From assembly GCA_026225215.1 (NCBI GenBank), contig JAMFSI010000025.1, forward strand, positions 1 to 64,000: a stretch of DNA of 64,000 nt, written 5' to 3'. The DNA is from Sphingomonas palustris. GTDB lineage: Bacteria > Pseudomonadota > Alphaproteobacteria > Sphingomonadales > Sphingomonadaceae. The position numbers were made by a program, and so were the translations under genes. Numbering within the stretch: the first letter of the stretch is position 1; each line of letters starts with the position of its first letter. Below are positions 22,542 through 47,657 of this stretch, piece after piece. The notes beneath the pieces are model-generated. The model did no database searches. It worked only from the letters and a program-made list of their open reading frames with translations, and was not told the DNA's origin.

Positions 22542-22801
22542 GTCCGTTTGCGCTTGGCCTCGACAAAGTTGCGCAGCGATCCGAAGCTGCCCAGCATTTC
22601 GCCATCGACCTCGTCGTCGTCGATGACGATATCCAGCCGGTCTTCGATTTCGGTCAACAGTCCGGCGACCGCCATCGAATCGAGCTCGGGCAAATGCCCG
22701 AACAGGCCGGTCTCGGCGCTGAAACCAGCCACTCGATCGGGGCTCAGCCCCAAGACGTCGCTCAGGATCAGCCGCAAGCGCTGGTCGGTCGTGCTGTCCA
22801 T
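22538..22801 (-). CDS. Acyl carrier protein, exosortase A-associated
   Basis: GHLPELDSMAVAGLLTEIEDRLDIVIDDDEVDGEMLGSFGSL; phosphopantetheine Ser in LDSM. Confidence 0.9.
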   Translation of the reverse strand: MDSTTDQRLRLILSDVLGLSPDRVAGFSAETGLFGHLPELDSMAVAGLLTEIEDRLDIVIDDDEVDGEMLGSFGSLRNFVEAKRKRT

Positions 22802-22860
22802 AAACCTCCTCGAACGATGCTTGCGACTAACCCTTATCAAACGCCGCGAACGTGGCGCCT

Positions 22861-25447: not shown

Positions 25448-26685
25448 CGCTGGAACAGGCCAAACCGCTGGGACCGATCCCTGCGGGCTTTGCCACGAGC
25501 CATGGCGAACTGGCCATCGCCGGCATTGCCGCAAGCGATCTGGTTGCGCGCGCGGGAGATACTCCGCTGTTCGTCTATTCCGCCCAGGCCGTGCGCGAGC
25601 AGGTGGCACGGCTACGCGCCGCCATGCCTGAACGGCTGGCGCTGCATTATGCGATGAAGGCCAATCCCTTCAAGCCATTGCTCCGGCTGATGGCAGGGCT
25701 GGTCGATGGCTTCGACATCGCTTCGGGCGGCGAGCTGGCACTGGCGCGCGCGGCGGGGATCGATCCGGCGCGGATCAGCTTTGCCGGGCCCGGCAAGCGC
25801 GACCGCGAACTCGAGGTGGCGATCGCCGCCGGGGTGACGCTCAATCTTGAATCCGAAGCCGAGGCCGAGCGAGCGCTGGCGATCGCCGGGCGGCTGGGCA
25901 TCACCCCGCGGCTCGCCATCCGCGTGAATCCGGAGTTCGATCTCAAGGGCTCGGGAATGAAGATGGGCGGCGGGGCCAAGCCGTTCGGGCTCGATGCTGT
26001 GCGCGTTCCGGCGCTGGCACGGCACCTCGTTGCCAGCGGCGCGGATTGGCGGGGGTTTCATATCTTCGCTGGCAGCCAGGCGCTCGATGCCGAGGCGATC
26101 GTCGAAACGCAAGCGCAGACGCTGGCGCTGGCTGTGCGACTGGCGCGCGAGGCTGGGGTATCGCTGCCGCATTGCAATCTCGGCGGCGGCTTTGGCATTC
26201 CCTATTTTCCGGGTGATCGCCCGCTCGATCTCGCCCGCATCGGCGATGCCCTGGCCGAGAATTTCGCGGCTCTGCCTGATGAATGTGCGGATACGCGCTT
26301 CTGCATCGAACTGGGGCGCTATCTGGTCGGCGAAGCGGGGGTCTATCTGACCCGGATCGTCGAGCGCAAGGTGAGCCATGGCGAGATATTCCTGATCACC
26401 GACGGTGGTCTGCATCACCAATTGGCGGCATCGGGTAATTTCGGCACCGTCGTGCGCCGCAATTACCCGGTGGCTATCGCCAGCCGCTTCGACGCCGAAC
26501 CCGAGGAGGTTGCCAATGTCGTCGGCTGCTTATGCACGCCGCTCGACCGACTGGCCGACAAAGGCAGCTTCCCGCGCGCCGAAGTCGGCGATCTGATCGC
26601 GGTGTTCTGCGCCGGTGCTTATGGCGCGAGCGCCAGTCCTTCGGCATTTTTGGGGCAGGGGCCGGCGCTGGAAATCCTCGTTTAG
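25444..26685 (+). CDS. PLP-dependent decarboxylase (Orn/DAP/Arg fold III), exosortase A system-associated
   Basis: LHYAMKANPFKPLL Lys motif, DIASGGELALARAAGIDPARISFAGPGK, NLGGGFGIPYFPGD, CTPLDRLAD; ATGA overlap. Confidence 0.93.
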   Translation: MTLEQAKPLGPIPAGFATSHGELAIAGIAASDLVARAGDTPLFVYSAQAVREQVARLRAAMPERLALHYAMKANPFKPLLRLMAGLVDGFDIASGGELALARAAGIDPARISFAGPGKRDRELEVAIAAGVTLNLESEAEAERALAIAGRLGITPRLAIRVNPEFDLKGSGMKMGGGAKPFGLDAVRVPALARHLVASGADWRGFHIFAGSQALDAEAIVETQAQTLALAVRLAREAGVSLPHCNLGGGFGIPYFPGDRPLDLARIGDALAENFAALPDECADTRFCIELGRYLVGEAGVYLTRIVERKVSHGEIFLITDGGLHHQLAASGNFGTVVRRNYPVAIASRFDAEPEEVANVVGCLCTPLDRLADKGSFPRAEVGDLIAVFCAGAYGASASPSAFLGQGPALEILV

Positions 26686-26843
26686 AGTTGGTCGCTTGCT
26701 TGTCCCGGTTCGGGACAGGCCCCCGGAAACGGGCCAAGGCTAACGCAATGTTCACCTTTATCCCGGATAGCGGAGGCTGAAAAACCTTTAGCCGCGCGGT
26801 GACCCTGCCCGCGCGGACGGGGGTTCCTGCGAAGGACAGCCTG

Positions 26844-27488
26844 ATGCCGAGTTCAAAGTTTGCCCGTCTGCTTGCAGGAACAGCCATGGCCTGCGTGGCT
26901 CTCGGCGGCTGCGCGAGCAGCGGCAATGATCCGCATCTGCCATCCGCCAATTTCGTCTCGACGCAGGAAGGTCCGGGCGAGGACTATATCATTGGTCCGC
27001 TTGATGAATTGACCATCTTCGTATGGCGTAATCCGGAGCTGGGCGCCAAGGTCCAGGTCCGCCCCGACGGGCGCATTTCCACCCCGCTGATCTCGGATAT
27101 GCCGGCGGTAGGCAAGACCCCGTCGATGTTGTCCGAGGATATCAGGCTGCAATTGTCGCAATATATCCAGGACCCGCTGGTCTCGGTGATCGTCAACAAA
27201 TTCGCCGGCACTTTCAGCCAGCAAGTGCGGGTGGTCGGGGCGTCGGGTAAGGCGGCGTCGCTGCCGTATCGCGCCAATATGACCTTGCTCGATGCGATGA
27301 TCGCGGTCGGCGGGCTCAACGAATATGCCGCCGGCAATCGCGCCAAGCTGATCCGCTTCGACCGCGAAAGCGGCCATCAGAAGGAGTTCGCGCTGCGCCT
27401 CGCCGATCTTGTCAAGAAGGGCGACAGCCGGGCCAACGTCATGCTGATGCCGGGCGACGTCATCATCATCCCCGAAAGCATGTTCTGA
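26844..27488 (+). CDS. XrtA-type polysaccharide export protein (Wza/BexD family lipoprotein)
   Basis: Lipobox LGGCASS, DYIIGPLDELTIFVWRNPELGAKVQVRPDGRISTPLISDM, PGDVIIIPESMF. Confidence 0.93.
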   Translation: MPSSKFARLLAGTAMACVALGGCASSGNDPHLPSANFVSTQEGPGEDYIIGPLDELTIFVWRNPELGAKVQVRPDGRISTPLISDMPAVGKTPSMLSEDIRLQLSQYIQDPLVSVIVNKFAGTFSQQVRVVGASGKAASLPYRANMTLLDAMIAVGGLNEYAAGNRAKLIRFDRESGHQKEFALRLADLVKKGDSRANVMLMPGDVIIIPESMF

Positions 27489-27516
27489 GCGTGGCGCGGG
27501 GAGGAACATTGGCGCG

Positions 27517-29052
27517 ATGAACACGCTTTACGACGATATCCGCAGTTCGCTGTACTCTATCTGGCAGCGCCGCTGGCTGGCGCTGGGCGTCGCCTGGGGC
27601 GTTTGCCTGCTCGGCTGGCTGATGGTGGCGACGATCCCCAATACCTACCAGGCGCAGGCGCGCATTTTCGTCCAGCTATACGATCCCTTGTCGGCGCAAG
27701 TCGGTATCGGCGCCAGTGATCGCAAGAACACGCTCGATCAGGTGCGCGATACGCTGACCAGCGCGCAGCATCTGCAGCAGGTCATTCAGGGCACGCGGCT
27801 GGGCGAAAACATCACCACCCAGCGCCAGATGGAATCGGCGATTGCTTCGCTGGGCAAGACCATCAAGATCGTCGCTGACCAGGATAACATCTTCGAGATT
27901 TCGGCCCAGACCAGTTCGGGCAAGCTCTCCGACGCCGACAACGCCCGGCTCTCGCAGGCGATCGTGCAGAAGATGATCGACATCTTCCGTAACGAGAACC
28001 ACGCCGCGAACCGCGATTCAGTCCAGCAGACCATGGCTTTCCTCAACCAGCAGCTGGCTCAGCGCGGCGCCGATCTACAGGCCGCCGACCAGCACCGCGT
28101 CGCTTTCGAAGCGAAATATCCGGAGCTGGCCGCTGGCGGCGTCTCGCTGGTTCAGCGGCTCGAGACCAGTCGATCCGAATTGCGTTCGATCGAAGGCGAT
28201 CTCGCCGCCGCGCAAAGCTCGCTGTCGTCGATCAACGGGCAATTGGCCGGCACCCCGGCGACGTTGCCGGGCAGCAGTGGTGTCGTCGGCGGTACGCGTT
28301 CGGCGCTGGCGCAAGCGGAGGCGGAGCTTGCCGGCATGCGCGGGCGTGGTCTCACCGAGAACCATCCCGACGTGATCGAGGTGCGTAACCAGATTGCCAG
28401 CCTGCGCCAGCAGGTCGCGAGCGAAGGCAATGGCGGCGGCTCCTCGGGCAGCATCCCCAATCCCAGCTATACCTCGCTGCAGTCGATCAAGGCCGATCGC
28501 GAGGCCAATCTGATGGCGCTGCAGGCACGCAAGGCTTCGATCGAGGGGGATCTGAACCAGGCTGCTGCCGCTCAGGCGACGAACCCCGATGTCGCCTCCG
28601 AGGCGCAGACGATCAGCCGCGATTACGACGTGCTCAAGCAGCAATACGATAAGCTGCTGTCCGATCGCGAAGCGCTGAAGCTACGTGGCACCGTCGAAAA
28701 TTCCGACGACGGCGCCAAGTTCCAGGTGATCGATCCGCCGCGGATCCCGCGCACGCCGATCGCGCCGAACCGCGGCCTGTTGCTGCTTGCGGTGCTGGTG
28801 GTCGGGATCGGCGCGGGTGTGGGTGCGGCTTACGGCATCGGCGAATTGCGTTCGACCTTCGGCACCACTGCCAAGCTCGAACGCGCGACCGGGCTGCCGG
28901 TACTGGGCGCGATCTCGCGGTCGCTGACCGTGGACGGGCTGCGGCTGCGTCAGACGCGGCTCAAATATTTTCTCGCTGGGGTGGGGGGGCTCGGCGGGTT
29001 GTTCCTGCTGCTGATCGTGTTCGAATTCATCCTGCGCGGCTCGGTCGCATGA
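27517..29052 (+). CDS. XrtA-type polysaccharide chain-length determinant protein
   Basis: Wzz-like N-terminal TM, coiled coil, C-terminal PPRIPRTPIAPNRGLLLLAVLVVGIGAGVGAAY. Confidence 0.93.
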   Translation: MNTLYDDIRSSLYSIWQRRWLALGVAWGVCLLGWLMVATIPNTYQAQARIFVQLYDPLSAQVGIGASDRKNTLDQVRDTLTSAQHLQQVIQGTRLGENITTQRQMESAIASLGKTIKIVADQDNIFEISAQTSSGKLSDADNARLSQAIVQKMIDIFRNENHAANRDSVQQTMAFLNQQLAQRGADLQAADQHRVAFEAKYPELAAGGVSLVQRLETSRSELRSIEGDLAAAQSSLSSINGQLAGTPATLPGSSGVVGGTRSALAQAEAELAGMRGRGLTENHPDVIEVRNQIASLRQQVASEGNGGGSSGSIPNPSYTSLQSIKADREANLMALQARKASIEGDLNQAAAAQATNPDVASEAQTISRDYDVLKQQYDKLLSDREALKLRGTVENSDDGAKFQVIDPPRIPRTPIAPNRGLLLLAVLVVGIGAGVGAAYGIGELRSTFGTTAKLERATGLPVLGAISRSLTVDGLRLRQTRLKYFLAGVGGLGGLFLLLIVFEFILRGSVA

Positions 29053-29062
29053 GGGGCTTGCC

Positions 29063-30037
29063 ATGACTCAGAACAAACCCGAGGCGAAACCGCCGGTGCC
29101 CCAGGGCTCGCTGCTCGAACGGGCCATCCTGGCACTGGAGTCGGGCGCATTGTCGCGGCCGACACCGCCTGAGCTTTCCGCCACGGTATCCCGGCCCGGA
29201 TCGGCGCCCAATGCCATGGCAGCGGTGCTGGCGGGGGTGTTCCCGGTCGATCTTGCCCCACGCGCCGCTGCTCCAGCGCAGATCGCCGCGCCGACCCCGG
29301 CGGTGTTTCGCGGCGGGCGCTATCGCATCGACCGCGACGGCCTCGCCGAAGCCGGGCTGATCGTGCCCGAAAGCGGCATCACCGCGCAGCTCGAAGAGTT
29401 TCGCCTGGTCAAGCGGCAACTGTTGCAGCAGGCCGAGCAGATGCGTCGGCAAGGCGGCGGTGGTGCCGCGCAGCGCGTGCTGGTTACTTCGCCACTGTCC
29501 GGCGAAGGCAAAAGCTATTGCGCGGCCAATCTGGCGCTGTCGATCGCTGCCGAGCGCGATAGCGAAGTCGTGCTGGTCGATTTCGATGCCTCCAAGAACA
29601 CCGTGCTGGGCATGCTGGGTCTGCCCAATGGCCCTGGCGTGATCGATGTGCTGGCCGATCCGGGGCTGGATATTCTCGATTGCGTAATGACCACCGATAT
29701 TCCTGGTCTGGCGGTATTGCCGGGCGGGCATTCGACCAGTTCGGACAATGAATATCTCGCCTCGGCGCGAACGCATGCGGTGCTCGATCAACTGACGGCA
29801 GCTGCGCCTAACCGCATCGTCTTGTTCGATTCGCCGCCGACACTCGCGGCTTCGCTGCCGGTCGAACTGGCCAAGCTGGTCGGCCAGGTCGCGCTGGTGG
29901 TCATGGCCGACCGCACCAGCCAGGGCGGCATTGAGGATGCGGTATCGCTGCTGTCGGGCTGCCCCAACATCCAGCTGCTGCTCAACGCGGTTCAATTCAG
30001 CCCCAGCGGTCGCCGTTTCGGCACCTATTACAAGTAA
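29063..30037 (+). CDS. XrtA-associated tyrosine autokinase (BY-kinase)
   Basis: RVLVTSPLSGEGKSYCAANLALSIA Walker A, VVLVDFDASKNTVLGMLGL Walker A', C-terminal Tyr-containing FGTYYK. Confidence 0.93.
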   Translation: MTQNKPEAKPPVPQGSLLERAILALESGALSRPTPPELSATVSRPGSAPNAMAAVLAGVFPVDLAPRAAAPAQIAAPTPAVFRGGRYRIDRDGLAEAGLIVPESGITAQLEEFRLVKRQLLQQAEQMRRQGGGGAAQRVLVTSPLSGEGKSYCAANLALSIAAERDSEVVLVDFDASKNTVLGMLGLPNGPGVIDVLADPGLDILDCVMTTDIPGLAVLPGGHSTSSDNEYLASARTHAVLDQLTAAAPNRIVLFDSPPTLAASLPVELAKLVGQVALVVMADRTSQGGIEDAVSLLSGCPNIQLLLNAVQFSPSGRRFGTYYK

Positions 30038-30049
30038 GTGGAACGTTCG

Positions 30050-31978
30050 ATGCCACGCCTGTACCGCCACACTACTGCTCTCGCCGCCGTTCTGGCAGGC
30101 AGCGCATGGATGACTTCGCCCGCAGCCCTGGCGCAGAGCGCAGCGAATGCCCGTCTAAGCTACGCAGCCGTGGCGACTGCCGATGTGGCTGCGACCAGTG
30201 ACAATTCCGCCGCTACCTCTGCGCAGTCTTCTGGTGCTCAGTCAGCTAATGCAGACGCGGCCGGACAAGGCGCGGCGACTGGCGTGGCTGCGGTCACTGA
30301 ACCGGGTGTCAATATGCCGGTGGTCAGCGCATCGGATGTCCATGCCCCGGCTATGGGCGATGAAGCCGATCAGGCGGGCGTTCCGGCGGACGCGACCGGC
30401 GGGCAGGACGGGCCTCTGGTTCACGATTCCAGCGGCGGTCCCGACAATCGGCACCTCCATATTTCGCCTTATATCGAGGCGCAGCAAGTAGCGGATAGCG
30501 AACTCAGCCCGCATTCGGGCACGCTGACTTATACCGTTCTGGCGGCGGGGGTCGATGGTTCGGTCGATGAGCGCAATGCCCAGGGTTCGCTGTCGCTGCG
30601 CTATGAACGCCAGATCGGCGAAAGCGACGGGGCCGGCAGCGCCAATCTCGTCTCGGGCGTGGGCCGGGGCAGCGTGGCGCTGATCCCGGATGCCCTGCGG
30701 CTCGATGCGGCCGGCTATGCCAACCGTACTTATGTTCTCGGCACTGGCGCGGCGCTGCCCAATATCAACACCAATAGCGACGCGCTGACTCAGGTCTATT
30801 CGGTGATCGGTGGCCCGACCCTCAGCACCAGCGCTGGCAACGTCAAGCTCGATGGCCATTACCATGTCGGCTATACCTATGTCGGCGAGCCGGGTGATGG
30901 CACGGTGACGCCTGGTCAATTGCCGGCCAACATCGCCGAACACAGCACGATGCAGGATGCCGGCGGGCGCGCCGCGCTGAAGCCGGGCGATGTGCTTCCG
31001 GTCGGCCTCGCCGTCGAGGGCGGCTATTACCAGGAGAATGTCTCGGTGCTGGCGCAGCGCATTCGCGATGCGCATGTCCGCGGCGAAGTCACGATCCCGG
31101 TGAACAACAATGTCGAACTGGTCGGCGGCTTGGGCTATGAAAATGTCCAGGTGTCGAGCCGCAACGCGGTGCTCGATGCCGATGGCAATCCGGTGCTCAG
31201 TGCCAGTGGGGCGTTGAAGACCGATTATTCCGGCCCGCGTTATATCGCCTTCGACACCTCGGGGCTGATCTGGGATGCCGGGGTGCTGTGGCGCCCCAGT
31301 CCGCGCACCAGCCTCGAAGCCCATGTCGGCCGCCGCTATGGCGACATTGGCGGCTATGGTCTGTTTACCTGGCATCCGACTACGCGCCAGGCGCTGAATG
31401 TCGCGGTTTACAACAATATGTCCGGCTTCGGCGGCGACCTCGATAGCTCGCTGATCAATTTGTCGGATCAGTTCCAGGCCGTGCGCAATGGCTTGACCGG
31501 CAGCGTTTCGCCTTGCGTCAATTCGCTTGCGGGTGGCTGTCTGGCGGGGGCGCTGGGCTCGCTGCGCTCGACGATTTTCCGCAGTCGGGGCGTGATCGCC
31601 AGCTATAATCGCGAATTGGGCCGTATCCAGCTCGGCATCGGCGCCGGTTATGATCGCCGGGAATATCTTGCCGCCCCCGGCACCGTGCTCGCCATCGAAA
31701 ACGGCGAAGTCGATCAGAACTATTGGGTCACCGGCTTCGTCACTTACGAAATCGATCGCCGGTCCTCGCTCTCCGGGACGCTCGACGCCTATTGGTTCCG
31801 GACCGGATTGGCCTTGAATAGCGATCTGAATGCAGTAGGCGCCACCGCGGTCTACCAGCGCAAGATCGTGCGAAACCTCACCGCGAGCGCGGCATTGGGT
31901 ATCGACAGCATCAATACCCAGGCACTCCACGACGTCTGGAGCGCATCGGGCGAACTCGGCGTGCGGTATACTTTCTGA
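30050..31978 (+). CDS. TIGR03016-like PEP-CTERM system-associated outer-membrane protein
   Basis: Signal peptide, ISPYIEAQQVADSELSPHSGTLTYTVLAAGVDG, beta-barrel ending GELGVRYTF; position in XrtA operon. Confidence 0.85.
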   Translation: MPRLYRHTTALAAVLAGSAWMTSPAALAQSAANARLSYAAVATADVAATSDNSAATSAQSSGAQSANADAAGQGAATGVAAVTEPGVNMPVVSASDVHAPAMGDEADQAGVPADATGGQDGPLVHDSSGGPDNRHLHISPYIEAQQVADSELSPHSGTLTYTVLAAGVDGSVDERNAQGSLSLRYERQIGESDGAGSANLVSGVGRGSVALIPDALRLDAAGYANRTYVLGTGAALPNINTNSDALTQVYSVIGGPTLSTSAGNVKLDGHYHVGYTYVGEPGDGTVTPGQLPANIAEHSTMQDAGGRAALKPGDVLPVGLAVEGGYYQENVSVLAQRIRDAHVRGEVTIPVNNNVELVGGLGYENVQVSSRNAVLDADGNPVLSASGALKTDYSGPRYIAFDTSGLIWDAGVLWRPSPRTSLEAHVGRRYGDIGGYGLFTWHPTTRQALNVAVYNNMSGFGGDLDSSLINLSDQFQAVRNGLTGSVSPCVNSLAGGCLAGALGSLRSTIFRSRGVIASYNRELGRIQLGIGAGYDRREYLAAPGTVLAIENGEVDQNYWVTGFVTYEIDRRSSLSGTLDAYWFRTGLALNSDLNAVGATAVYQRKIVRNLTASAALGIDSINTQALHDVWSASGELGVRYTF

Positions 31979-31994
31979 GAAACGGAGCGTGTCG

Positions 31995-33188
31995 ATGTAT
32001 AGCGATTTCTATGGCTTCGCGGGCCGCCCGTTCCAGCTGACGCCGGACGCAGCCTTCTATTTCGAAAGCCAGACCCATCGCAAGGCGCTGTCCTATCTGG
32101 GCTATGGCCTGGCGCAGGGCGAGGGCTTCGTGGTGATCACCGGCGAGGTGGGCGCGGGCAAATCGACGTTGGCGGCGCATTTGATGGCGACCATCGATCC
32201 GGCCCGGCTGACCGCCGCGCAAGTGGTTTGCGCCAAGCTCGATGGCGACGAAATCGTCCAGACCGTCGCCCGCGCCTTCGGGCTCGCCGTGGAGGGCCGC
32301 ACGGCCAAGGCGGATGCGCTCGATATGATCGAACGGCATTTCCATGACGAGGCGCGCACCGGGCGTCGCTGTCTGCTGGTGGTCGATGAGGTGCAGAATC
32401 TCTCGGTCTCCGCACTGGAAGAATTGCGCATATTGTCCAATTTCCAGCTGGGCGCACATCCGCTGTTGCAGACGTTGCTGCTCGGCCAGCCCGAATTTCG
32501 CACAGCCCTGCAATCTCACCCCGATCTGGAGCAATTGCGCCAGCGGGTGATCGCCTCGCATCATCTCGAAGCGATGGAAGCGAGCGAGGTCGAGCGCTAT
32601 ATCGCCCACCGGCTCAAATGCGTTGGTTGGGCGGGCAAACCCAGCTTCGACCACCGTGTTTTCGCCGAGCTTTACACCGCAACCGGCGGCGTGCCCCGGC
32701 GCATCAACCAGATCGTCAACCGGCTGCTGCTGCTCGGTGCGATCGAGCAGAAAAGCCATATCGATAACGTCATGCTGTCGCAGGTGCTGACCGAATTGGC
32801 CAGCGATGGCGGCCTGCAGATTGCCAATGCCGAAGCCGCCGTCACGCCGGCGCAGGAACCCGCGCCGGTTAGTGCCGCCGCGCCTGCCGCTGGCGGCCTG
32901 AACGACAAGCAAGCACGGCAGGAATCGGCCACGCAATCGCCATCGTCCCTCGATGATGCCCTTGCCAGCCGCGATGTCCAGATCGCCGAATTGCAGCAAG
33001 CGGTGCTCGAACTTGCCGACACCGGTGAAGGCCATCCCCTGCATCACCGGATCGATATCACCGCTTTGCAGGAACGTCTGGCCAGCCTCGAAAGCCGGGT
33101 GATCGAGCAGGAACGGACCATCCGCCACACGCTGACCATGCTGATCGAATGGATCGAACGCGATGAAACCCACCGCGCCGCCGCTTGA
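31995..33188 (+). CDS. XrtA/PEP-CTERM system-associated ATPase (ExeA-like AAA)
   Basis: MYSDFYGFAGRPFQLTPDAAFYFESQTHRKALSYLGYGLAQGEGFVVITGEVGAGKSTLAAHLM; LLVVDEVQNL. Confidence 0.94.
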   Translation: MYSDFYGFAGRPFQLTPDAAFYFESQTHRKALSYLGYGLAQGEGFVVITGEVGAGKSTLAAHLMATIDPARLTAAQVVCAKLDGDEIVQTVARAFGLAVEGRTAKADALDMIERHFHDEARTGRRCLLVVDEVQNLSVSALEELRILSNFQLGAHPLLQTLLLGQPEFRTALQSHPDLEQLRQRVIASHHLEAMEASEVERYIAHRLKCVGWAGKPSFDHRVFAELYTATGGVPRRINQIVNRLLLLGAIEQKSHIDNVMLSQVLTELASDGGLQIANAEAAVTPAQEPAPVSAAAPAAGGLNDKQARQESATQSPSSLDDALASRDVQIAELQQAVLELADTGEGHPLHHRIDITALQERLASLESRVIEQERTIRHTLTMLIEWIERDETHRAAA

Positions 33189-33273
33189 ATTGATGATTCA
33201 TTTCCCGCCTCGACCGATCCGGGTCGACGCGATTCGCTTGTTCTGTCGTCCCCTGGTTTAAAGGATTACGCTC

Positions 33274-34191
33274 GTGCAATCCCCGCCGCTTGCCGACGAA
33301 CTGCTGCCCGTCAACGGGCTGTCGGTCGATGTCGAAGACTGGTTTCAGGTCGGCGCGTTCGAGAATGTGATCGCGCGCGATAGCTGGGATACGCTGACCG
33401 ACCGGATCGAGCGCAATTGCGCGGTGATCCTCGATCTTTTCGCCGCCGCCGACGTCAAAGCGACTTTCTTCACGCTGGGCTGGGTGGCCCGGCGCCATCC
33501 CGCCCTGCTCCGACGGATCGCCGATGCCGGGCATGAAGTGGCCAGTCATGGCTGGGATCACGAACGGGTTTTCAAAGGCGATGCCAAGAGTTTCGGTGAT
33601 GATCTTCGCAAGGCTCGCGAGGCCATCGAGGATGCCTGTGGAGTCAGGGTCACCGGCTATCGCGCGCCCAGCTTCTCGATCGATCAGCGCACCCCCTGGG
33701 CGTACATGGTCCTGGCCGAGCAGGGTTATACCTATAGTTCCAGCGTCGCCCCGATCGCGCATGATCATTATGGCTGGCGCGAGGCGCCGCGTTTCGCCTT
33801 CAAACCCCTGCCATGGTCCGAACTGATCGAAATTCCGGTGACGACGGCGGAATTTGGCAATCGCCGGCTGGCGGCGGGCGGCGGCGGTTTTTTCCGGGTG
33901 CTGCCTTACCGCTTTACCCATTGGGCGATCCGCAAGGTCAATACCCGCGACGAGCGTCCCGCAGTGTTCTATTTCCACCCCTGGGAAATCGATGCTGGCC
34001 AGCCGCGCGTGACTCAGGCACCGCTCAAATCGCGGCTGCGGCATTATACCAACATCGAGAAGATGGAAGAAAAGCTGCGACGCCTGCTCGGTGATTTTGC
34101 CTGGGGGCGAATGGACGTGCTGGCAAGCCGCGAAGCCTATCGCGCGGTGGCGCCGATTATGGCCCGTTCCGCCAAGGACCAGGCGGCTTGA
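33274..34191 (+). CDS. XrtA-associated polysaccharide deacetylase (DUF3473 type)
   Basis: NGLSVDVEDWFQVGAFENVI, ATFFTLGWVARRHPALLRRIADAGHEVASHGWDH, FYFHPWEIDAGQPR; GTG start. Confidence 0.94.
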   Translation: MQSPPLADELLPVNGLSVDVEDWFQVGAFENVIARDSWDTLTDRIERNCAVILDLFAAADVKATFFTLGWVARRHPALLRRIADAGHEVASHGWDHERVFKGDAKSFGDDLRKAREAIEDACGVRVTGYRAPSFSIDQRTPWAYMVLAEQGYTYSSSVAPIAHDHYGWREAPRFAFKPLPWSELIEIPVTTAEFGNRRLAAGGGGFFRVLPYRFTHWAIRKVNTRDERPAVFYFHPWEIDAGQPRVTQAPLKSRLRHYTNIEKMEEKLRRLLGDFAWGRMDVLASREAYRAVAPIMARSAKDQAA

Positions 34192-35282
34192 ACGCACCGT
34201 TTCGCCTGGCTACCGGCAGCCGCCTGCGTCTCGTCGATCCCGGCGATCCAGGCGAGGCGGCCCGGATTGAGCGCTTCGTTGGCGCACACCCCGAAGCGAC
34301 GCCGTTTCATCGCCCGGCATGGTTGACGGCGGTGGCGCGGGGCACGGGGAATCGCGCGCGGGCTATGGTGGCGGAGTACCCAGGCGGGCCGGTAGAGGAC
34401 GGCTTGGCGGCCTATCTGCCGCTGCATGAAGTGCATTCGCCGATCTTTGGCCGACTGCTGGCTTCCAGTGGCTTTGCCGTGGGTGGCGGCCTGCTTCTGG
34501 CGCCCGACATCGATCCGGCGCCGCTGTTCGCCGCGCTGGAGGAGCTGGCCTTGCGACTGTGCTGCCCGGCGGTCGAACTGCGCGGTGGCGTGTTGCCACA
34601 GGATCGGACGGGCTGGACGGTCCGCGATCGCTCGCATTGCGGCTTTGTCGCGCCGCTCGCCCGTGATGACGAGGCGCAATTGCTGGCCATTCCGCGCAAG
34701 CAGCGTGCCGAGGTGCGCAAGAGCCTGACCGCGCTGCTCGACGTCGATGTCGGCAATGGTCTGGCCCAGCGCGAGGCCCATTATGCGGTCTATGCCGAAA
34801 GTCTGCGCAATCTCGGGACGCCGGTCTTTCCCCGCGCGCTGTTCGATGCGGTGTTGGATGCCTTCGCAGAGGATGCCGATATCCTGACCGTGCGGCATCA
34901 GGGACGACCGGTTTCCAGCGTATTGTCGCTATATCACCGGGGCGCGGTGATGCCCTATTGGGGCGGCGGTACGCGCGAGGCGCGGCGACTGCGGGCCAAT
35001 GACCGGATGTATTATGCGCTGATGCTGCATGCCCGGGCGCGTGGTTGCAGCCATTTCGATTTCGGTCGCTCGAAGACCTGCAGCGGCGCTTACGACTTCA
35101 AGCGTAATTGGGGGTTCAGCCCGGAACCGCTTGTTTATGCGGCATGGACTGCACCTGGCGCCGAACGCCGCGACGCCGATCCCACCAGTGCCAAACATGT
35201 CGCGCAGATCGCATTGTGGCAGCGGCTGCCGCTGTCCGTGGCCAACCGGTTAGGGCCCTTCATCGCCAGAGGCCTTGGATGA
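34188..35282 (+). CDS. FemAB family XrtA/PEP-CTERM system-associated protein
   Basis: HPEATPFHRPAWLTAV, KQRAEVRKSL, FDFGRSKTCSGAYDFKRNWGF; non-ATG start (TTG), overlaps upstream gene. Confidence 0.92.
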   Translation: MNAPFRLATGSRLRLVDPGDPGEAARIERFVGAHPEATPFHRPAWLTAVARGTGNRARAMVAEYPGGPVEDGLAAYLPLHEVHSPIFGRLLASSGFAVGGGLLLAPDIDPAPLFAALEELALRLCCPAVELRGGVLPQDRTGWTVRDRSHCGFVAPLARDDEAQLLAIPRKQRAEVRKSLTALLDVDVGNGLAQREAHYAVYAESLRNLGTPVFPRALFDAVLDAFAEDADILTVRHQGRPVSSVLSLYHRGAVMPYWGGGTREARRLRANDRMYYALMLHARARGCSHFDFGRSKTCSGAYDFKRNWGFSPEPLVYAAWTAPGAERRDADPTSAKHVAQIALWQRLPLSVANRLGPFIARGLG

Positions 35283-36541
35283 GCCACGAAATCCTGTTCA
35301 TCTGTCATCGCATGCCGTTCCCCCCCGATCGCGGCGACAAGATCCGTTCGCACCATATTCTCAAGCGGCTGGCGCGGATCGCGCCGGTGCACGTCGCCTG
35401 CTTCGCCGATAGCGATGCCGATATGGCCGAGGAGGTGGAACTGGCTGCGCTGGCCGCCAGCTACCGGCTGGTTCGTCGCACCAAGCCGCTGGTGCTTGCC
35501 GGTCTGCAAGGGCTGGCGCGCGGCTGTTCGATCAGCAAGACCGCGTTCGAGGATCCGGCGTTAGCCAGCTACATTCGGCAATTGCTGGCGAGCGGAAAGA
35601 TCGGCACGATCTATCTGTTTTCGGGGCAGATGGGACAATATGTCCCGCAGGATTTCACCGGTCGGCTGATCGTCGATTTCGTCGATGTCGATTCCGCCAA
35701 ATTTGACGCTTTCGGCATGCAGAAACAAGGGTTCAGAGGATGGGTCGATGCCCGTGAGGGGCGCCGGTTGCGTCTGGAAGAGGCGGCGCTGGCCGAGCGC
35801 GCCGATGTCTGCCTGCTGGTCACGCACCAGGAGGTCGAACTGTTCGTTTCGCGGCTCCCCTCGGATTTGCGGCACTCGGTCGATGTGCGTGTGCTTCACA
35901 ATGGCATCGACAGCGTGTTTTTCGATCCCGGCCTGGTCAATCCCGAAGTTGCCCTGCAAGCGGTGCCGGGGCCGCGCCTGATCTTCACCGGGCAGATGGA
36001 TTATCGCCCCAACGCCGATGCCGCGCTGCGGGTGGTCGAGCGTATCCTGCCCATCATCCGGCGTAGCCTGCCCGATGCCAGCTTCCATGTCGTCGGCCGC
36101 AATCCCACAGCCGAACTGCTGGCGTATCATGGCCAGGACGGGGTGCATGTCTGGGGGCAGGTCGAGGATATTCGCTGCTGGATAAAAGCGGCGGACATTG
36201 CGCTGGTGCCGCTGGAGATCGCCCGCGGCGTGCAGAACAAGGTGCTGGAAGCGATGGCGATGGCATTGCCGATCGTGCTGACCGCGGCATCGGCGCTAGG
36301 CATCGACGCGCAGGCCGACCACCATTTCGTGCTGGCCGAGACGGATGACGAACTGGCGGCGGCGGTGATCAAGCTCGCGGCATATCCTCCTCGGGCCAAG
36401 GCAATCGGCCTCGCCGCACGGCGCTTCGTGGCCGAGCAGCAGAGTTGGCAAGGGACATTGGCGCGGCTTGCGGCGATCGTCAGCGATGGCCAGCGCGCCG
36501 CCGCGCCCAATCGGCGCGGCGTGCATCGCGATGCCGCCTGA
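35279..36541 (+). CDS. TIGR03087-like PEP-CTERM/XrtA system glycosyltransferase
   Basis: MSHEILFICHRMPFPPDRGDKIRSHHILKRLA, PRLIFTGQMDYRPNADA, VQNKVLEAMAMALPIVLT; ATGA overlap. Confidence 0.94.
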   Translation: MSHEILFICHRMPFPPDRGDKIRSHHILKRLARIAPVHVACFADSDADMAEEVELAALAASYRLVRRTKPLVLAGLQGLARGCSISKTAFEDPALASYIRQLLASGKIGTIYLFSGQMGQYVPQDFTGRLIVDFVDVDSAKFDAFGMQKQGFRGWVDAREGRRLRLEEAALAERADVCLLVTHQEVELFVSRLPSDLRHSVDVRVLHNGIDSVFFDPGLVNPEVALQAVPGPRLIFTGQMDYRPNADAALRVVERILPIIRRSLPDASFHVVGRNPTAELLAYHGQDGVHVWGQVEDIRCWIKAADIALVPLEIARGVQNKVLEAMAMALPIVLTAASALGIDAQADHHFVLAETDDELAAAVIKLAAYPPRAKAIGLAARRFVAEQQSWQGTLARLAAIVSDGQRAAAPNRRGVHRDAA

Positions 36542-38117
36542 AGGCGAGAGACTGGCCGGTCCCGAAATCCAAATGGCGGGATGGCGCGACCAGGGGCGGC
36601 TAAGCCAGCCCTGGCGTGGGGCGCTGATTCGCCTTGGCGCGATCTGGGTGGCGCTTATCCTGCTGTTCGCCGGGCAATGGCGGGCGATGGCCGATCAATG
36701 GTGGAATATATCCACTTACACGCATGTTCTGCTGATCCCGGCGATTATCGCCTGGCTGGTGTGGCAGCGCGCGGCTGAGCTCTTGCGCTTGTCACCGCAA
36801 GGCTGGTGGCCGGGTTTGCTCGGCCTCGCCGCAGCGCTGCTGGTCTGGCTGATGGGCACATTCGCCGGGCTGGCGGAACTTCAACAGGCCGGCGCCGTGG
36901 CGCTGCTGGTCGCGGCGGTGCCGCTGGTTCTGGGCGCGCGCGTGGCGGCGGGGTTGATCTTTCCGCTCGCCTATATGGCGTTCCTCGTGCCGGTGGGGGA
37001 CGAGGCGATCCCGTTTCTGCAAATCGTCGATGCCCGGCTGACCGTTTGGATGCTGCATCTCACCCATGTTCGGGCTGCGCTCGATGGGGTGTTCATCTCC
37101 ACCCCGGTCGGGCTGTTCGAGATTGCCGAGGCTTGTTCCGGGGTCAAGTTCCTGGTCGCAATGATCGCATTTGGGGTGTTGGCGGCGAATATCTGCTTTT
37201 TGAGCTGGCAGCGGCGGGCGGTGTTTCTGGTGGTGGCGGTCGCGGTGCCGATCATTGCCAACGGCGTGCGGTCATGGGGCACGGTCTATGTCGCGCAATT
37301 CTTCGGCGCAGCCTATGCCGGCGGGGTCGATCACATCATCTATGGCTGGATATTCTTCGCGATCGTCATTGGCAGCACGCTGGCCCTGGCATGGCCGTTT
37401 TTCGACCGCCCGGCGCATGCGCCGATGATCGATGCCGAGGCACTGGCGGCATCGCCGAGACTGGCGCGTCTCGAACGTCTGCGACTGGGGCCTTATGCGA
37501 TGCTGGCGGCGGTGCTGGGGCTGGCACTCGCTGCCTTGGGTTGGGCTGCGGCGGCTGAGCGGCTGGTGGCGCCGCTTCCGGCGCGGATCGATCTGCCCGA
37601 AGTGCCCGGTTGGCATCGCGTGGCATATACGCCGCAACCCTGGTGGGAGCCACGCGCGGCGGGCGCCGACCACCGCTTGCTCGGCCGCTATGCCGATGGG
37701 CGTGGCGATGTCGTCGATGTGTTTTTTGCGCTCTATGCCTCGCAAGGGACGGGGCACAAGGCCGATGGCTATGGCGAAGGTGCGGCACGGCGGGACAGCG
37801 GCTGGGCTTGGCAGGCAGCCGGACCGGTCGTGGCCGATGCCACCAGCGAGCGGTTGCAGGCCGCGGGCCCGGTGCTGCGGCTGGCCGAAACCACTTATGT
37901 TCGTGGCGATCTCGTTACCGGCAGAAAGCTGGCGCTGCGGTTGCGCAATTTGCAGGACCGGCTGGTGCTGCGCGCCGAGCCGACGATGATGCTGATCCTG
38001 TCGGCTGAGTCAGCGTCCGGTCGATCGCCCGAAGCCGAGATTGCGGCATTCCGGGCAGCGACGGGCCCAGCTCGGTTGTGGATGAGGCAAGTAGCACAGG
38101 AACGCGGACACCGCTGA
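36531..38117 (+). CDS. xrtA: Exosortase A fused to EpsI-type domain
   Basis: Multiple TMs; catalytic Cys in EIAEACSGVKFLVA, Arg in NGVRSWGTVYVAQ, His in GGVDHIIYGWIFF; C-terminal EpsI-like domain (LPEVPGWHRVAYTPQPWWEP...DVVDVFFALYASQGTGHK). Confidence 0.93.
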   Translation: MPPEGERLAGPEIQMAGWRDQGRLSQPWRGALIRLGAIWVALILLFAGQWRAMADQWWNISTYTHVLLIPAIIAWLVWQRAAELLRLSPQGWWPGLLGLAAALLVWLMGTFAGLAELQQAGAVALLVAAVPLVLGARVAAGLIFPLAYMAFLVPVGDEAIPFLQIVDARLTVWMLHLTHVRAALDGVFISTPVGLFEIAEACSGVKFLVAMIAFGVLAANICFLSWQRRAVFLVVAVAVPIIANGVRSWGTVYVAQFFGAAYAGGVDHIIYGWIFFAIVIGSTLALAWPFFDRPAHAPMIDAEALAASPRLARLERLRLGPYAMLAAVLGLALAALGWAAAAERLVAPLPARIDLPEVPGWHRVAYTPQPWWEPRAAGADHRLLGRYADGRGDVVDVFFALYASQGTGHKADGYGEGAARRDSGWAWQAAGPVVADATSERLQAAGPVLRLAETTYVRGDLVTGRKLALRLRNLQDRLVLRAEPTMMLILSAESASGRSPEAEIAAFRAATGPARLWMRQVAQERGHR

Positions 38118-38217: not shown

Positions 38218-40113
38218 ATGTGCGGATTTGCCGGAATTTTTACGCCATCCGCCGCGCAGCCCGTCGATGGCGCGCGGCTTGAGGCGATGTGCGACGCCAT
38301 CGCTCATCGCGGGCCCGACGGCTATGGCATGTGGACTGCGCCGGGGGTCGGGCTCGGCCACCGCCGGTTGTCGATCATCGACATCGCCGGCTCGCCGCAA
38401 CCGATGGCCGCGAGCGATGGCCGGGCGATGCTGGTATTCAACGGCGAGATCTACAATTATCGCGAATTGCGGGCCGAACTCGCCGGGCAGGGCGCTCAAT
38501 TCCACACCGATGGCGATAGCGAGGTGATCCTTGCGGCTTATCAACGCTGGGGTGCGGATTGCGTGACGCGGCTGGCGGGGATGTTCGCCTTCGCCATCTA
38601 CGATCTCGACCGGCGCGAACTGCTGCTGGCGCGCGACCGGCTGGGCGTAAAGCCGCTATTCACCGCCAAATTACCCGACGGCAGCATCATTTTCGGCAGT
38701 GAATTAAAGGCGCTGACGGCCCATCCTCTATTACCACGCGAAGTCGATCCGCTCGCGGTGGAGGACTATCTGACCTGGGGCTATGTCCCCGACACCCGAT
38801 CGATCCTGAAGGGCGTCGAAAAACTGCCGGCCGCGCATATCCGCTGGCTGCGCCACGATGCCTCGCCGACCCCGCCGCAGCGGTGGTGGGATATCTCCTT
38901 TGCCGATCGCCGCAAAGGCAGTGCTGCTGACCTCGAAGCCGAACTGGTCGATCTGATGCGCGATGCGGTGCGCTCGCGGATGGTGGCCGATGTCCCGCTG
39001 GGCGCCTTCCTGTCGGGCGGGGTCGACAGCTCATCGGTGGTGGCGCTGATGGCCGAGGCCAGCGGCACGCCGGTGCGGACCTGTTCGATCGGTTTCGACG
39101 TCAAGGCGCTGGATGAAAGCGATTATGCCCGCCAGGTGGCCGAGCGCTTTGCCACCGATCATCGCAGCCGCATGGTCTCGCCCGATGATTTCGCGGCCAT
39201 CGACCAACTCGCCGGCATGTTCGACGAGCCCTTTGCCGATGCCTCGGCGCTACCGATGTGGCGGGTGTGCCAACTGGCGCGCGAGAGTGTGACGGTGGCC
39301 TTGTCGGGCGACGGCGCGGATGAGGCCTTCGCCGGCTATCGCCGCCATGTTTTCCACCATGGCGAGGAGCGGTTACGCGGGCTGCTGCCGCAAGCTTTGC
39401 GCGCGCCGGTCTTCGGCACGATGGGCCGGCTGTACCCCAAGGCCGATTGGGCGCCGCGCCCGCTGCGGGCGAAAACGACCTTGCTGGCGTTGGCTGGCAA
39501 CGGCGAGGCGGCTTATGCCCAGGCTTTGTCGGTTGCTCATCCGCTGTTGAGAGATCAGCTATATACAGCTGAATACAAAAAATTACGGGGCGATTATCGC
39601 GGCGAGCAGCCGTTTATCGAGCTGATGCAAAAGGCCCCGGCGCGGTCCGGGCTGGACCGGGCGCAATATGCCGATCTGGCCTTCTGGCTTCCCGGCGATA
39701 TCCTGACCAAGGTCGATCGCACCAGCATGGCGGTTGGCCTGGAGGCGCGGGAGCCTTTGCTCGATCACCGGCTGGTCGAATTTGCCGCCAGCCTGCCCGA
39801 AGCGATGCGCGTCCGGCGCGGCACCGGCAAATGGCTGATGAAACACGCCATGCGCTGCTATCTCCCTGACAACATCCTGTTTCGCCAGAAACAGGGCTTC
39901 GTCACGCCGATCGCGCAGTGGTTTCGCGGGCCATTGGCTGGCGCCGCCCGCGCCATCGGCACCAGCACTGCGCTTGGCCGAACCGGATGGTTCGATGCAG
40001 CGCGAATCGGAGAAATTGCCGAGGCTCATATCGCCGGCCGGTCGGATCATTCTCGGCTCTTGTGGCAATTGGTGATGCTCGACAAATCGCTGGCTGGCCT
40101 GGGCATCGCTTGA
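38218..40113 (+). CDS. XrtA/PEP-CTERM system amidotransferase (asparagine synthetase-like)
   Basis: MCGFAGIFTP Cys-2 glutaminase, HRGPDGYGMW, LGHRRLSIID, FLSGGVDSSSVVALMAE. Confidence 0.95.
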   Translation: MCGFAGIFTPSAAQPVDGARLEAMCDAIAHRGPDGYGMWTAPGVGLGHRRLSIIDIAGSPQPMAASDGRAMLVFNGEIYNYRELRAELAGQGAQFHTDGDSEVILAAYQRWGADCVTRLAGMFAFAIYDLDRRELLLARDRLGVKPLFTAKLPDGSIIFGSELKALTAHPLLPREVDPLAVEDYLTWGYVPDTRSILKGVEKLPAAHIRWLRHDASPTPPQRWWDISFADRRKGSAADLEAELVDLMRDAVRSRMVADVPLGAFLSGGVDSSSVVALMAEASGTPVRTCSIGFDVKALDESDYARQVAERFATDHRSRMVSPDDFAAIDQLAGMFDEPFADASALPMWRVCQLARESVTVALSGDGADEAFAGYRRHVFHHGEERLRGLLPQALRAPVFGTMGRLYPKADWAPRPLRAKTTLLALAGNGEAAYAQALSVAHPLLRDQLYTAEYKKLRGDYRGEQPFIELMQKAPARSGLDRAQYADLAFWLPGDILTKVDRTSMAVGLEAREPLLDHRLVEFAASLPEAMRVRRGTGKWLMKHAMRCYLPDNILFRQKQGFVTPIAQWFRGPLAGAARAIGTSTALGRTGWFDAARIGEIAEAHIAGRSDHSRLLWQLVMLDKSLAGLGIA

Positions 40114-40349
40114 CTTGATCGACCGAGTCCGGCGCATCCGAAAGGCGCGCTGATCTCGTTCTGGATATGAACGGTTTACCGCAAGCTCGCTCGGTGCTAC
40201 TTGAGATGGGGTTGCAAAGGGTAAACGGTCCGTTTTGAGACAGCCACCGAGCATAGAATTCACTTGCGAAGTAAGGTGTAAACGGCTCTAAATACATAAT
40301 ATTAGCCAAAGCCGATGCGCAGATCGGTCATTCTGACGATTGAGGGCGT

Positions 40350-41303
40350 ATGGATCGATTGTCTAGCGGGGTTGCAGGCAGGCATGAGGACGACGGGGAT
40401 GGTAGTGCCATTCCGCTCAACTCCTCCCATGAAGAGCTGATTGAGAAATCACTGGTCCGTCTGGCGGTGCCGGAAGAACTGCTGCATCTGCGAGAACTCG
40501 ATGTTCTCTACGAAGCCGAGCAAAAGACCTTGTGGACTTTCATGCGTCCGTCCGGACGTCCTAGTTTCACCCCTCCCATGCTGGCCGATTTCGAGGTCTG
40601 GCAGCAGCAGATCGGCCAGCATTTCGGTCCGAACGGCGTGCCGCTGAATTATCTGATCCTGGGCAGCCGGGCACCGGGCGTGTTCTGCTTCGGCGGCGAT
40701 CTCGAATTGTTCGATCGGCTGATTCGCGAGGGGAACCGCGAAGGCCTGGCGCGCTATGGCTATCGCTGCGTCGAGATTCTCCATCGCAATATGCATGCGC
40801 TCAACTTGCCGATGCTGACCATCGGCCTGGTTCAGGGTCAGGCGCTGGGCGGTGGCTTCGAAGCACTGTTGTCGTTTGACGTCATCATTGCCGAACGGGG
40901 TTCGACCTTCGGTTTGCCAGAGATCATGTTCGGCCTGTTCCCGGGCATGGGTGCGCATGCCATCCTGTCACGCAAACTGGGCACCGCGCTGGCCGAACGG
41001 CTGATCCAATCCAGCAAGAGCCACACGGCCGAGGAAATGTACGAGCTCGGGATCGTCGCCGAATTGGCCGAGCCCGGCTGCGGCGTGGAAGCGGTACGCC
41101 ACTATATCGAACGATCCAACCGCCGCCACAGCGGTTTGGTCCATGCTCGCCAGGCCATGCGCCGGGTTGCGCCGATCGAATTGACGGAATTGCGGGCTAT
41201 CGTCGATTTGTGGGCCGATGCCGCGCTGCATTTGAGCAATAGCGATCTCAAGCTGATGCGGCGCCTCGCGAGCGCGCAAGTACGGCACTCCACGGCGGCC
41301 TGA
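40350..41303 (+). CDS. Crotonase-fold protein resembling RpfF/DSF synthase
   Basis: FCFGGDLELFDRLIREGNREGLARYGYRCVEI, GLVQGQALGGGFEALLSFDVIIAERGSTFGLPEIMFGLFPGMGAHAILSRK; keeps the GGGFE and LPE glutamates of RpfF enzymes. Confidence 0.85.
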   Translation: MDRLSSGVAGRHEDDGDGSAIPLNSSHEELIEKSLVRLAVPEELLHLRELDVLYEAEQKTLWTFMRPSGRPSFTPPMLADFEVWQQQIGQHFGPNGVPLNYLILGSRAPGVFCFGGDLELFDRLIREGNREGLARYGYRCVEILHRNMHALNLPMLTIGLVQGQALGGGFEALLSFDVIIAERGSTFGLPEIMFGLFPGMGAHAILSRKLGTALAERLIQSSKSHTAEEMYELGIVAELAEPGCGVEAVRHYIERSNRRHSGLVHARQAMRRVAPIELTELRAIVDLWADAALHLSNSDLKLMRRLASAQVRHSTAA

Positions 41304-41489: not shown

Positions 41490-42191
41490 TTAAACCGCGT
41501 CTACCAGCACCAATTCCGCATCGTCGATCGCTTCCACCACGATCGCCGTTTCGCCGGTGATGGCGATGCCGTCACGGGGCTGCGCTTCCTGGCCGTTGAC
41601 GCGAATACGGCCCGTCGGCGCCACCAGATATTGGTGACGCATAGGATCGACCTGTTGCTCGATCCGCTGGCCCGCCGCCAAAGTCGCCGCCAGCACGTCG
41701 GCATCGGCGCGGATCGGCAAAATGCCGTCATCGGCGTTACCCTCGCCGCTGGCCAGGGTCACCCAGCGGCCGGCGCGAGTGCCGCGCGGAAATTCGCGCT
41801 GCCCCCAGCCCGGCTTCTCGCCGCTGCGATCAGGCTGAATCCAGATCTGAAACAGCGTGGTCGCCTCATCCTCGCGGTTGTATTCGGCGTGAACGATCCC
41901 GGTCCCCGCGCTCATCACCTGCACATCGCCTGCGCCGGTGCGGCCCTTGTTGCCCAGGCTGTCCTCGTGGGTGATCGCGCCGCTACGTACGAAGGTCACG
42001 ATCTCCATGTCCCGGTGCGGATGGGGATCGAAGCCGGTATGCGCGGCGATGGTGTCGTCATTCCATACCCGGATCGCACCCCAGCCCATGCGGTCGCGGT
42101 CGAGATAATTGGCGAAGCTGAAGTGGTGGCGGGCATCGAGCCAGCCGTGCTGGGCATGGCCAAGGCCAGCGAAGGGGCGGATGTCGATCAT
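41490..42191 (-). CDS. Pirin family protein
   Basis: MIDIRPFAGLGHAQHGWLDARHHFSFANYLDRDRMGWGAIRVWNDDTIAAHTGFDPHPHRDMEIVTFVRSGAITHEDSLGN. Confidence 0.95.
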   Translation of the reverse strand: MIDIRPFAGLGHAQHGWLDARHHFSFANYLDRDRMGWGAIRVWNDDTIAAHTGFDPHPHRDMEIVTFVRSGAITHEDSLGNKGRTGAGDVQVMSAGTGIVHAEYNREDEATTLFQIWIQPDRSGEKPGWGQREFPRGTRAGRWVTLASGEGNADDGILPIRADADVLAATLAAGQRIEQQVDPMRHQYLVAPTGRIRVNGQEAQPRDGIAITGETAIVVEAIDDAELVLVDAV

Positions 42192-42319
42192 GGCTATTCT
42201 CACTTCGGCGGGGTGTTGCCGCCGGTAAGCGCTGCAAGTGGGATGCCTCCCTCGTAAATTCAAGCCGGCCGGTCAGTGGGAAGGTAGCGCCGTTCCCCGC
42301 TGGCAGGGTGAAACCACAC

Positions 42320-46538: not shown

Positions 46539-47657
46539 TCAGTCACCGCCGTGCCCGAGCGCCAGATAATCCTGGCTTTGCATTTCGAGCAGCCGGCTGA
46601 TCGTGCGGTCGAATTCGAAGCGCCCATCGCCTTTTTCATAGAGTTCTTCGGGCGCGGCAGCGGCGGTGGCGAAGAGCTTCACCTTGTTCTCGTACAGCGT
46701 GTCGATCAGCGTGATGAAGCGCATCGCCTCATTGCGATTTTCGGGGCTCATGACGGGAATCCCGACCAGGATCACGGTATGGTAAGCATGGGCGACGGCG
46801 AGGTAATCGGAAGCGCCGCGATTTTCGCCGCAGAGCCGTTTGAAGCTGAAGACCGCAACGCCCTTGAGGCTCTTGGGCACATGCAACTTGCGGCCGCCGC
46901 CGAGATCGAGATCGGCCGAGGGGACATTCGCCGAATCCTCGGGATTGTAGTCGGTCAGGCGGAAGAAGGCCTCGCGCACCTTCGCCGTGGCGGCATCGCC
47001 AAGCGGCGTGTGCCAGGTTGCCAATCCCTTGATGCGGTCCAGCCGGTAGTCGGTGGGGCCGTTCAACGGCACGACATCGAGTTCGCGTTCGATCAGCGCG
47101 ATGAAGGGCAGGAAATGCTCGCGGTTGAGCCCATCCTTGTACAGTTCCGACGGCGCGCGGTTCGAGGTGGTGACGACGGTGACGCCATGGTCGAGGATCA
47201 GCGCGGTGAACAGCCGGCTCATGATCATGGCGTCGGCGGAATTGTTGACCACCATTTCGTCGAAGGCGAGCACGCGCACGCCATCGGCCAGCGCCGCGGC
47301 GACTTGCGGGATCGGATCGCCGGTCTCCAGTTTGCGCACCTCGCGCATGCGGGCGTGAACCTCGAGCATGAAGGCGTGGAAATGAACGCGGCGCTTCTCT
47401 TTGATCGCCAACGCATCGTGGAACAGGTCCATCAGCATCGACTTGCCGCGCCCGACCCCGCCCCACATATATATGCCGCGCGGTCTGGGCGCCGGCTTGC
47501 GCCCGAGCAGCTTGCCGAGGAAACCGCCGCCCGCCGGCGCTTTCACCAGCTCGCCGCGCAGCGCGGCCAGCCGTCGCGCCGCAGCAGCCTGCTCGGGGTC
47601 GGGGCGCAGTTCACCCGCGGCGACAAGCTGGTCGTAGCGCGACACGATCTCGCTCAT
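46539..47657 (-). CDS. zapE: Cell division protein ZapE (AFG1-like ATPase)
   Basis: PRGIYMWGGVGRGKSMLMDLFHDAL, LAFDEMVVNNSADAMIMSRLFTALILDHGVTVVTTSNR. Confidence 0.95.
   Translation of the reverse strand: MSEIVSRYDQLVAAGELRPDPEQAAAARRLAALRGELVKAPAGGGFLGKLLGRKPAPRPRGIYMWGGVGRGKSMLMDLFHDALAIKEKRRVHFHAFMLEVHARMREVRKLETGDPIPQVAAALADGVRVLAFDEMVVNNSADAMIMSRLFTALILDHGVTVVTTSNRAPSELYKDGLNREHFLPFIALIERELDVVPLNGPTDYRLDRIKGLATWHTPLGDAATAKVREAFFRLTDYNPEDSANVPSADLDLGGGRKLHVPKSLKGVAVFSFKRLCGENRGASDYLAVAHAYHTVILVGIPVMSPENRNEAMRFITLIDTLYENKVKLFATAAAAPEELYEKGDGRFEFDRTISRLLEMQSQDYLALGHGGD

Follow-up and report, generated by a model that had tools for sequence, protein, structure and literature searches.

The gene at the downstream edge of the exosortase A (XrtA) polysaccharide cluster in the window, i.e., the whole 64,000-nucleotide stretch of DNA analysed here, encodes what sequence, tree placement and AlphaFold model concur in identifying as an RpfF-type (DSF-synthase) crotonase and not a catabolic hydratase. 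Its most constant partner is not XrtA, beside which it lies, but a membrane GGDEF-EAL protein. Taking these together, the joint reading, of an RpfF synthase, a membrane c-di-GMP receptor and relocation of the synthase gene to beside the exopolysaccharide cluster, would seem on balance to be the probable one. Were it true, sphingomonads would possess DSF-type signalling whose receptor is built differently and feeds directly into c-di-GMP, and one could then test how the XrtA polysaccharide is regulated. Where a sequence-only reading of the DNA had been content to place the sensor ‘elsewhere’, there is now one named candidate gene in the window's genome.

What kind of crotonase?

The open reading frame is stop-free, all the motifs quoted in the sequence-only reading are present in its translation, and the ATG at 40350 as start is backed by an M-D-R beginning kept in most relatives. 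The product matches Pfam ECH_1 and passes NCBIfam PRK08788/NF006452 with 349 bits (cut-off 177), a family that spans RpfF and DfsA, i.e., DSF synthases of proven type; an RpfF of Xanthomonas type (82% identical to the Xcc enzyme) and one of Burkholderia type (95% identical to DfsA), taken as controls, score 412 and 410 bits there respectively. The product fails the NCBIfam RpfF equivalog NF053515 (193.6 bits, cut-off 550). Does this argue against a DSF synthase? That argument was rejected since the Burkholderia-type control, close as it is to DfsA, is also below the cut-off at 184 bits, and so NF053515 fits Xanthomonas-type RpfF only and is not a definition of DSF synthases.

By sequence the nearest solved structures are four RpfF/DfsA chains (7zq7, 3m6m, 5fus and 6dgn, E 2e-49 to 4e-43), with the first hydratase after them at 7e-17. 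Where the proteins align, the window protein is 38% identical to Xcc RpfF and 32% to DfsA. The AlphaFold model has a mean pLDDT of 80, with residues 1–35 below 50, and in a fold search with it the top 12 PDB chains, of which 5fus is the best match, are all RpfF/DfsA (E 1e-23 to 1e-20); other crotonases appear from 3e-14 only, some six orders of magnitude behind. DspI, a crotonase of Pseudomonas aeruginosa, has been named as a homologue of RpfF in connection with a cis-2 fatty-acid signal (PMC4504480); unlike the window protein it (5wyd, E 2e-12) is among the generic hydratases in this search, far below RpfF. In the tree, on which the branches concerned are long, four crotonases of the same genome are separated from window RpfF by a branch with 100% support, and the window gene is the sole PRK08788 member among the crotonases of that genome. 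A second RpfF-like paralogue had been suspected at C145:26360, and was discarded as it is outside that family. The earlier view of the protein as RpfF-type rather than a generic hydratase is, then, borne out by structure matches, by tree placement away from its own hydratases and by fold search.

What that view had leant on in part, two glutamates at catalytic positions, fared less evenly. E171 (in GGGFE) and E191 (in LPE) do align with the two glutamates of Xanthomonas RpfF and are invariant in 24 relatives, but at least half of the ordinary hydratases in this genome have them too, and because of that they do not discriminate RpfF. The positions that do so are W62, S106, F121, R130, C140, F197, M200, W288, R305 and Q310, ten marker residues common to the RpfFs of Xanthomonas, Burkholderia and the window clade and mostly missing from the hydratases of the window's own genome. 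RpfF enzymes convert 3-hydroxyacyl-ACP to cis-2-enoyl-ACP, with hydrolysis following (PMC4504480). To go by family and fold, the window enzyme most likely makes a cis-2-enoic acid: its substrate would be 3-hydroxyacyl-ACP, which it would dehydrate and then cleave as a thioesterase, releasing a cis-2-unsaturated fatty acid of the DSF family.

Table 1. Features of the window and the candidate sensor gene elsewhere in the same genome
Feature	Position	Strand	Basis or remark
RpfF-type crotonase, candidate DSF-family synthase	40350..41303	+	317 aa; catalytic-position glutamates E171, E191; PRK08788, tree, fold
XrtA/PEP-CTERM system amidotransferase (TIGR03108), immediate upstream neighbour of rpfF	38218..40113	+	family match
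Exosortase A (TIGR03109), EpsI-type C-terminal domain	36468..38117	+	family match
Remaining XrtA exopolysaccharide cluster	25444..36541	+	family matches
Putative own rpfF promoter: TTGCGA, 19 bp, TAAATA	40264..40294	+	inferred from alignment
Pirin-like downstream neighbour, conserved	41490..42194	-	named by sequence reading, without family search; start uncertain
ZapE, conserved downstream backbone gene; marks occupied and empty rpfF sites	46539..47657	-	conservation
Candidate sensor in the window's own genome	L162:8052-9974; input domain G000:C174:33042-33689		contig 174; 640 aa, GGDEF and EAL matched

The place beside XrtA

The XrtA/PEP-CTERM cluster upstream of rpfF is complete, and its amidotransferase gene ends 236 bp before rpfF. 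Its remaining part (Table 1) holds a PLP decarboxylase, an export protein, a chain-length determinant, a tyrosine autokinase, a 646-aa unknown, an ATPase, a deacetylase, FemAB and a glycosyltransferase. The 646-aa protein (30038-31978, + strand), in mid cluster and with its position conserved in relatives, falls in no family of Pfam or NCBIfam under the thresholds applied. At 22541-23940 on the - strand there is a PP-binding acyl-carrier-type protein with a GNAT-type acyltransferase gene, divergent from an acyl-CoA ligase. As for its expression, rpfF appears to have a promoter of its own: when the window and 11 relatives are aligned upstream of rpfF they have one block in common, TTGCCA, with, in many, a TA-containing hexamer about 17–19 bp on, and the window copy is a weaker match than that of the relatives.

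Is this a habitual location for rpfF? Among 151 sampled genomes of the window's family, 56 have a PRK08788 member, 99 the XrtA amidotransferase and 50 both (Fisher p 1e-6, ancestry ignored), and 49 XrtA genomes are without rpfF. It directly follows the amidotransferase in 31 genomes and is within 10 kb in 4 more; with three others (G112, G113 and G077), where it is at the XrtA locus and the amidotransferase is missing, cut off where the contig stops, or part of the locus is deleted, the XrtA-located set is 38 genomes, and in the remaining 18 of the 56 rpfF is elsewhere. A set of 80 named loci, mainly from Novosphingobium, Altererythrobacter, Erythrobacter and relatives, has rpfF immediately 3′ of the amidotransferase in 53 and with about 5 kb between in 13, the rest being short contigs or loci that have lost the amidotransferase. 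At empty sites the amidotransferase is followed directly by the pirin-like gene (G045) or by ZapE (G126). Conserved synteny with XrtA loci, anticipated by the sequence-only reading, is what was found, the window clade being at the XrtA locus wherever context is readable. In a phylum-level sample outside the family, rpfF and the XrtA amidotransferase are together in one genome only, and there on separate contigs.

Two other occupants of the region deserve mention. The insert of about 5 kb between amidotransferase and rpfF is mainly a feature of Novosphingobium, and in the one case examined (L203:4844-9864) it consists of HlyD-type adaptor and ABC-exporter genes. In two rpfF-less genomes of the window's genus, G026 and G108, the slot right after the amidotransferase holds an EAL-domain protein, of 752 and 764 aa (L113:4549-6807 and L114:4836-7130), one of them with a sub-threshold CHASE2 match, a hint that c-di-GMP genes may be favoured there.

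Is rpfF strictly tied to exosortase A? It appears not to be. At six loci (L229, L231, L237, L257, L267 and L275) the polysaccharide block is deleted with rpfF kept at the scar, the sequence from decarboxylase to rpfF being contiguous and without N. There is no exosortase match anywhere in those six genomes, several of which are draft MAGs so that genome-wide absence is a weak result. Five of the six keep the sensor, and rpfF accordingly tracks the sensor more closely than the exosortase. Still beside rpfF at the scars are an ACP-like ORF, an acyl-CoA ligase and the PLP decarboxylase. Their candidacy as rpfF-specific partners was rejected as they are too widespread, the decarboxylase being in 130 of the 151 family genomes, rpfF present or not.

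A membrane GGDEF-EAL protein as candidate receptor

The candidate sensor was sought with a profile built on its N-terminal membrane domain. By hydropathy this input domain has 5–6 TM segments; the copy in the window's genome has no Pfam match at E 0.1, and no PAS domain was found in the protein. The sensor is in all 38 genomes with XrtA-located rpfF, the window's included, either on a different contig or at a distance; it is in all 50 genomes with rpfF in the wider clade versus 9 of 95 rpfF-less genomes (Fisher p 8e-24 over all 151 genomes, ancestry ignored). Both same-genus genomes lack rpfF and sensor alike. The sensor tree mirrors that of rpfF, and in both quick trees the window protein is basal in the XrtA-type clade. 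Sensors of rpfF-less genomes are poorer matches to the profile (p 0.0005, uncorrected), and two of them have altered GGDEF or DDFGTG motifs. At the XrtA-located rpfF loci there is no RpfC-type hybrid kinase nearby, such kinases adjoining only six other copies in the family. The earlier surmise that the sensor is elsewhere or different agrees well with an unlinked membrane GGDEF-EAL candidate in every sampled XrtA-type genome.

Adjacency in relatives, co-occurrence and mirrored trees point to this protein as most likely the receptor. The cognate receptor would be the product of the contig 174 gene, with its 5–6-TM input domain, and binding of the signal to it would alter c-di-GMP synthesis or breakdown. 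Control of the XrtA polysaccharide by the candidate signal is plausible from the location of rpfF and the predicted c-di-GMP output. Larger genomes of alphaproteobacteria (family codes f9 and f11) also carry this membrane domain, for the most part within frames of some 780–805 aa. No PRK08788 rpfF was found in them, and because of this the sensor may respond to a different ligand. A fatty acid desaturase gene (PF00487, L162:5755-7008) lies shortly before the candidate sensor in the window's genome; it is absent from the neighbour clusters shared by relatives.

How did synthase and sensor genes come to be apart? Of the 18 rpfF genes located elsewhere than XrtA, 12 are convergent with the membrane GGDEF-EAL gene and 6 are beside an RpfC-like hybrid kinase. 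The XrtA-located rpfF genes form one clade (bootstrap/SH-aLRT 100/99), nested within a 100/99 clade all of whose other members are convergent with the sensor, and so sensor adjacency is likely older and the XrtA location derived. In the immediate outgroup, G020, the cluster of genes upstream of the sensor is that of XrtA-type genomes, and rpfF is on the sensor's other side, the position in which XrtA-type genomes have malate dehydrogenase and succinyl-CoA ligase genes following the sensor. Such an arrangement is to be expected if rpfF left its sensor, and G020 probably shows the ancestral pair. The two genes would have been convergent neighbours ancestrally, until rpfF was carried, in the ancestor of the Novosphingobium/Erythrobacter-type lineage, to the far end of the XrtA cluster, downstream of it and seemingly under a promoter of its own, the sensor gene presumably staying upstream of the mdh-suc genes. 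The joint reading has the support that convergent rpfF-receptor gene pairs are a known arrangement in Xanthomonas and Burkholderia (PMC4504480). Against it are that nine rpfF-less genomes keep the sensor, that identity to the proven synthases is 32–38%, and that the co-occurrence is uncorrected for ancestry.

Rival readings and known systems

What else might the arrangement mean? One alternative has rpfF as a functional part of the XrtA system, with signal production and exosortase polysaccharide as one coupled unit. One rpfF clade is indeed fixed at the XrtA locus across dozens of species, the XrtA amidotransferase is in most rpfF genomes (the ancestry-uncorrected association above), c-di-GMP output of the candidate sensor would fit exopolysaccharide control, and an EAL-domain protein has the same slot in two same-genus genomes. 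Nevertheless, rpfF is retained where exosortase is undetected and seems to be under its own promoter, XrtA without rpfF is common in the family, and the linkage is limited to this family; we regard such a unit as unlikely, though deserving of attention. The resemblance to an XrtA/PEP-CTERM exopolysaccharide locus is in the complete cluster directly upstream, from which the window gene differs in that rpfF is no standard member, as the 49 genomes lacking it illustrate.

Considerably less credible is a partnership of rpfF with the ACP, acyl-CoA ligase and PLP decarboxylase of the locus in which it would make or trim an acyl group for a small molecule or polysaccharide substituent, with no diffusible signal. 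The locus has an ACP-type gene, an ACP-like ORF stays beside rpfF with the ligase and the decarboxylase where the polysaccharide genes are deleted, and RpfF enzymes use ACP-bound substrates (PMC4504480); but the decarboxylase is indifferent to the presence of rpfF, rpfF in sister clades is away from the locus and paired with the sensor, and the co-inheritance of the sensor is left unexplained. Least of all is to be expected of an ordinary catabolic enoyl-CoA hydratase as chance neighbour of the XrtA cluster: the crotonase fold and the ECH_1 match are as such a protein would have them, yet its separation from the own-genome hydratases in the tree, the wide fold-search gap, the residues that RpfFs share and hydratases mostly lack, and its being alone in PRK08788 among the genome's crotonases make this very hard to sustain.

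Returning to a DSF-type synthase with a membrane receptor, reviews recognize two core types of DSF receptor, RpfC and RpfR, of which RpfR is the c-di-GMP enzyme shown to bind the DSF signal (PMC4504480, PMC8846402). RpfR is a soluble protein that has FI and PAS domains (PMC4504480, PMC6361424). It is also this PAS-containing enzyme for which a 2022 census of c-di-GMP sensing gives direct evidence of DSF-family binding (PMC8846402), so that a membrane GGDEF-EAL receptor would be a new architecture. With Burkholderia/Cronobacter RpfF (DfsA) and RpfR there are in common the best fold match, the GGDEF-EAL output and the convergent pair in sister clades, whereas the partner in the window's genome has a membrane input domain in which PAS was not detected, and the genes are unlinked in the window clade. 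With Xanthomonas RpfF and RpfC/RpfG, the RpfF-type synthase, its fold, the catalytic-position glutamates and, in the window's relatives, a convergent sensor gene are shared; the differences are the 38% identity and the want of an adjoining RpfC-type partner in the window clade. Could the sensor itself be of RpfC type? This was rejected, as no relationship could be detected between its membrane domain and the RpfC-type 5-TM domain (about 1% probability on profile comparison). We know of no precedent for a membrane GGDEF-EAL protein as DSF receptor. In the openly licensed literature searched, no paper was found on RpfF and exosortase together, and RpfF with Erythrobacter has an incidental mention only. 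It may tentatively be suggested, with somewhat less than even expectation, that RpfF and a membrane GGDEF-EAL receptor with a non-Pfam 5–6-TM domain constitute a third core DSF type, in which relocation of the synthase gene, in one large lineage, to the border of the exosortase exopolysaccharide cluster would tie the signal to matrix production.

The family has a further variation on the theme. At the six loci where rpfF adjoins an RpfC-like kinase (L078, L079, L080, L082, L088 and L092) there is a second gene, for a GGDEF-EAL protein, in L079 of REC-PAS-GGDEF-EAL form, and so in these the kinase is paired with GGDEF-EAL, whereas in Xanthomonas rpfC/rpfG the pairing is with HD-GYP.
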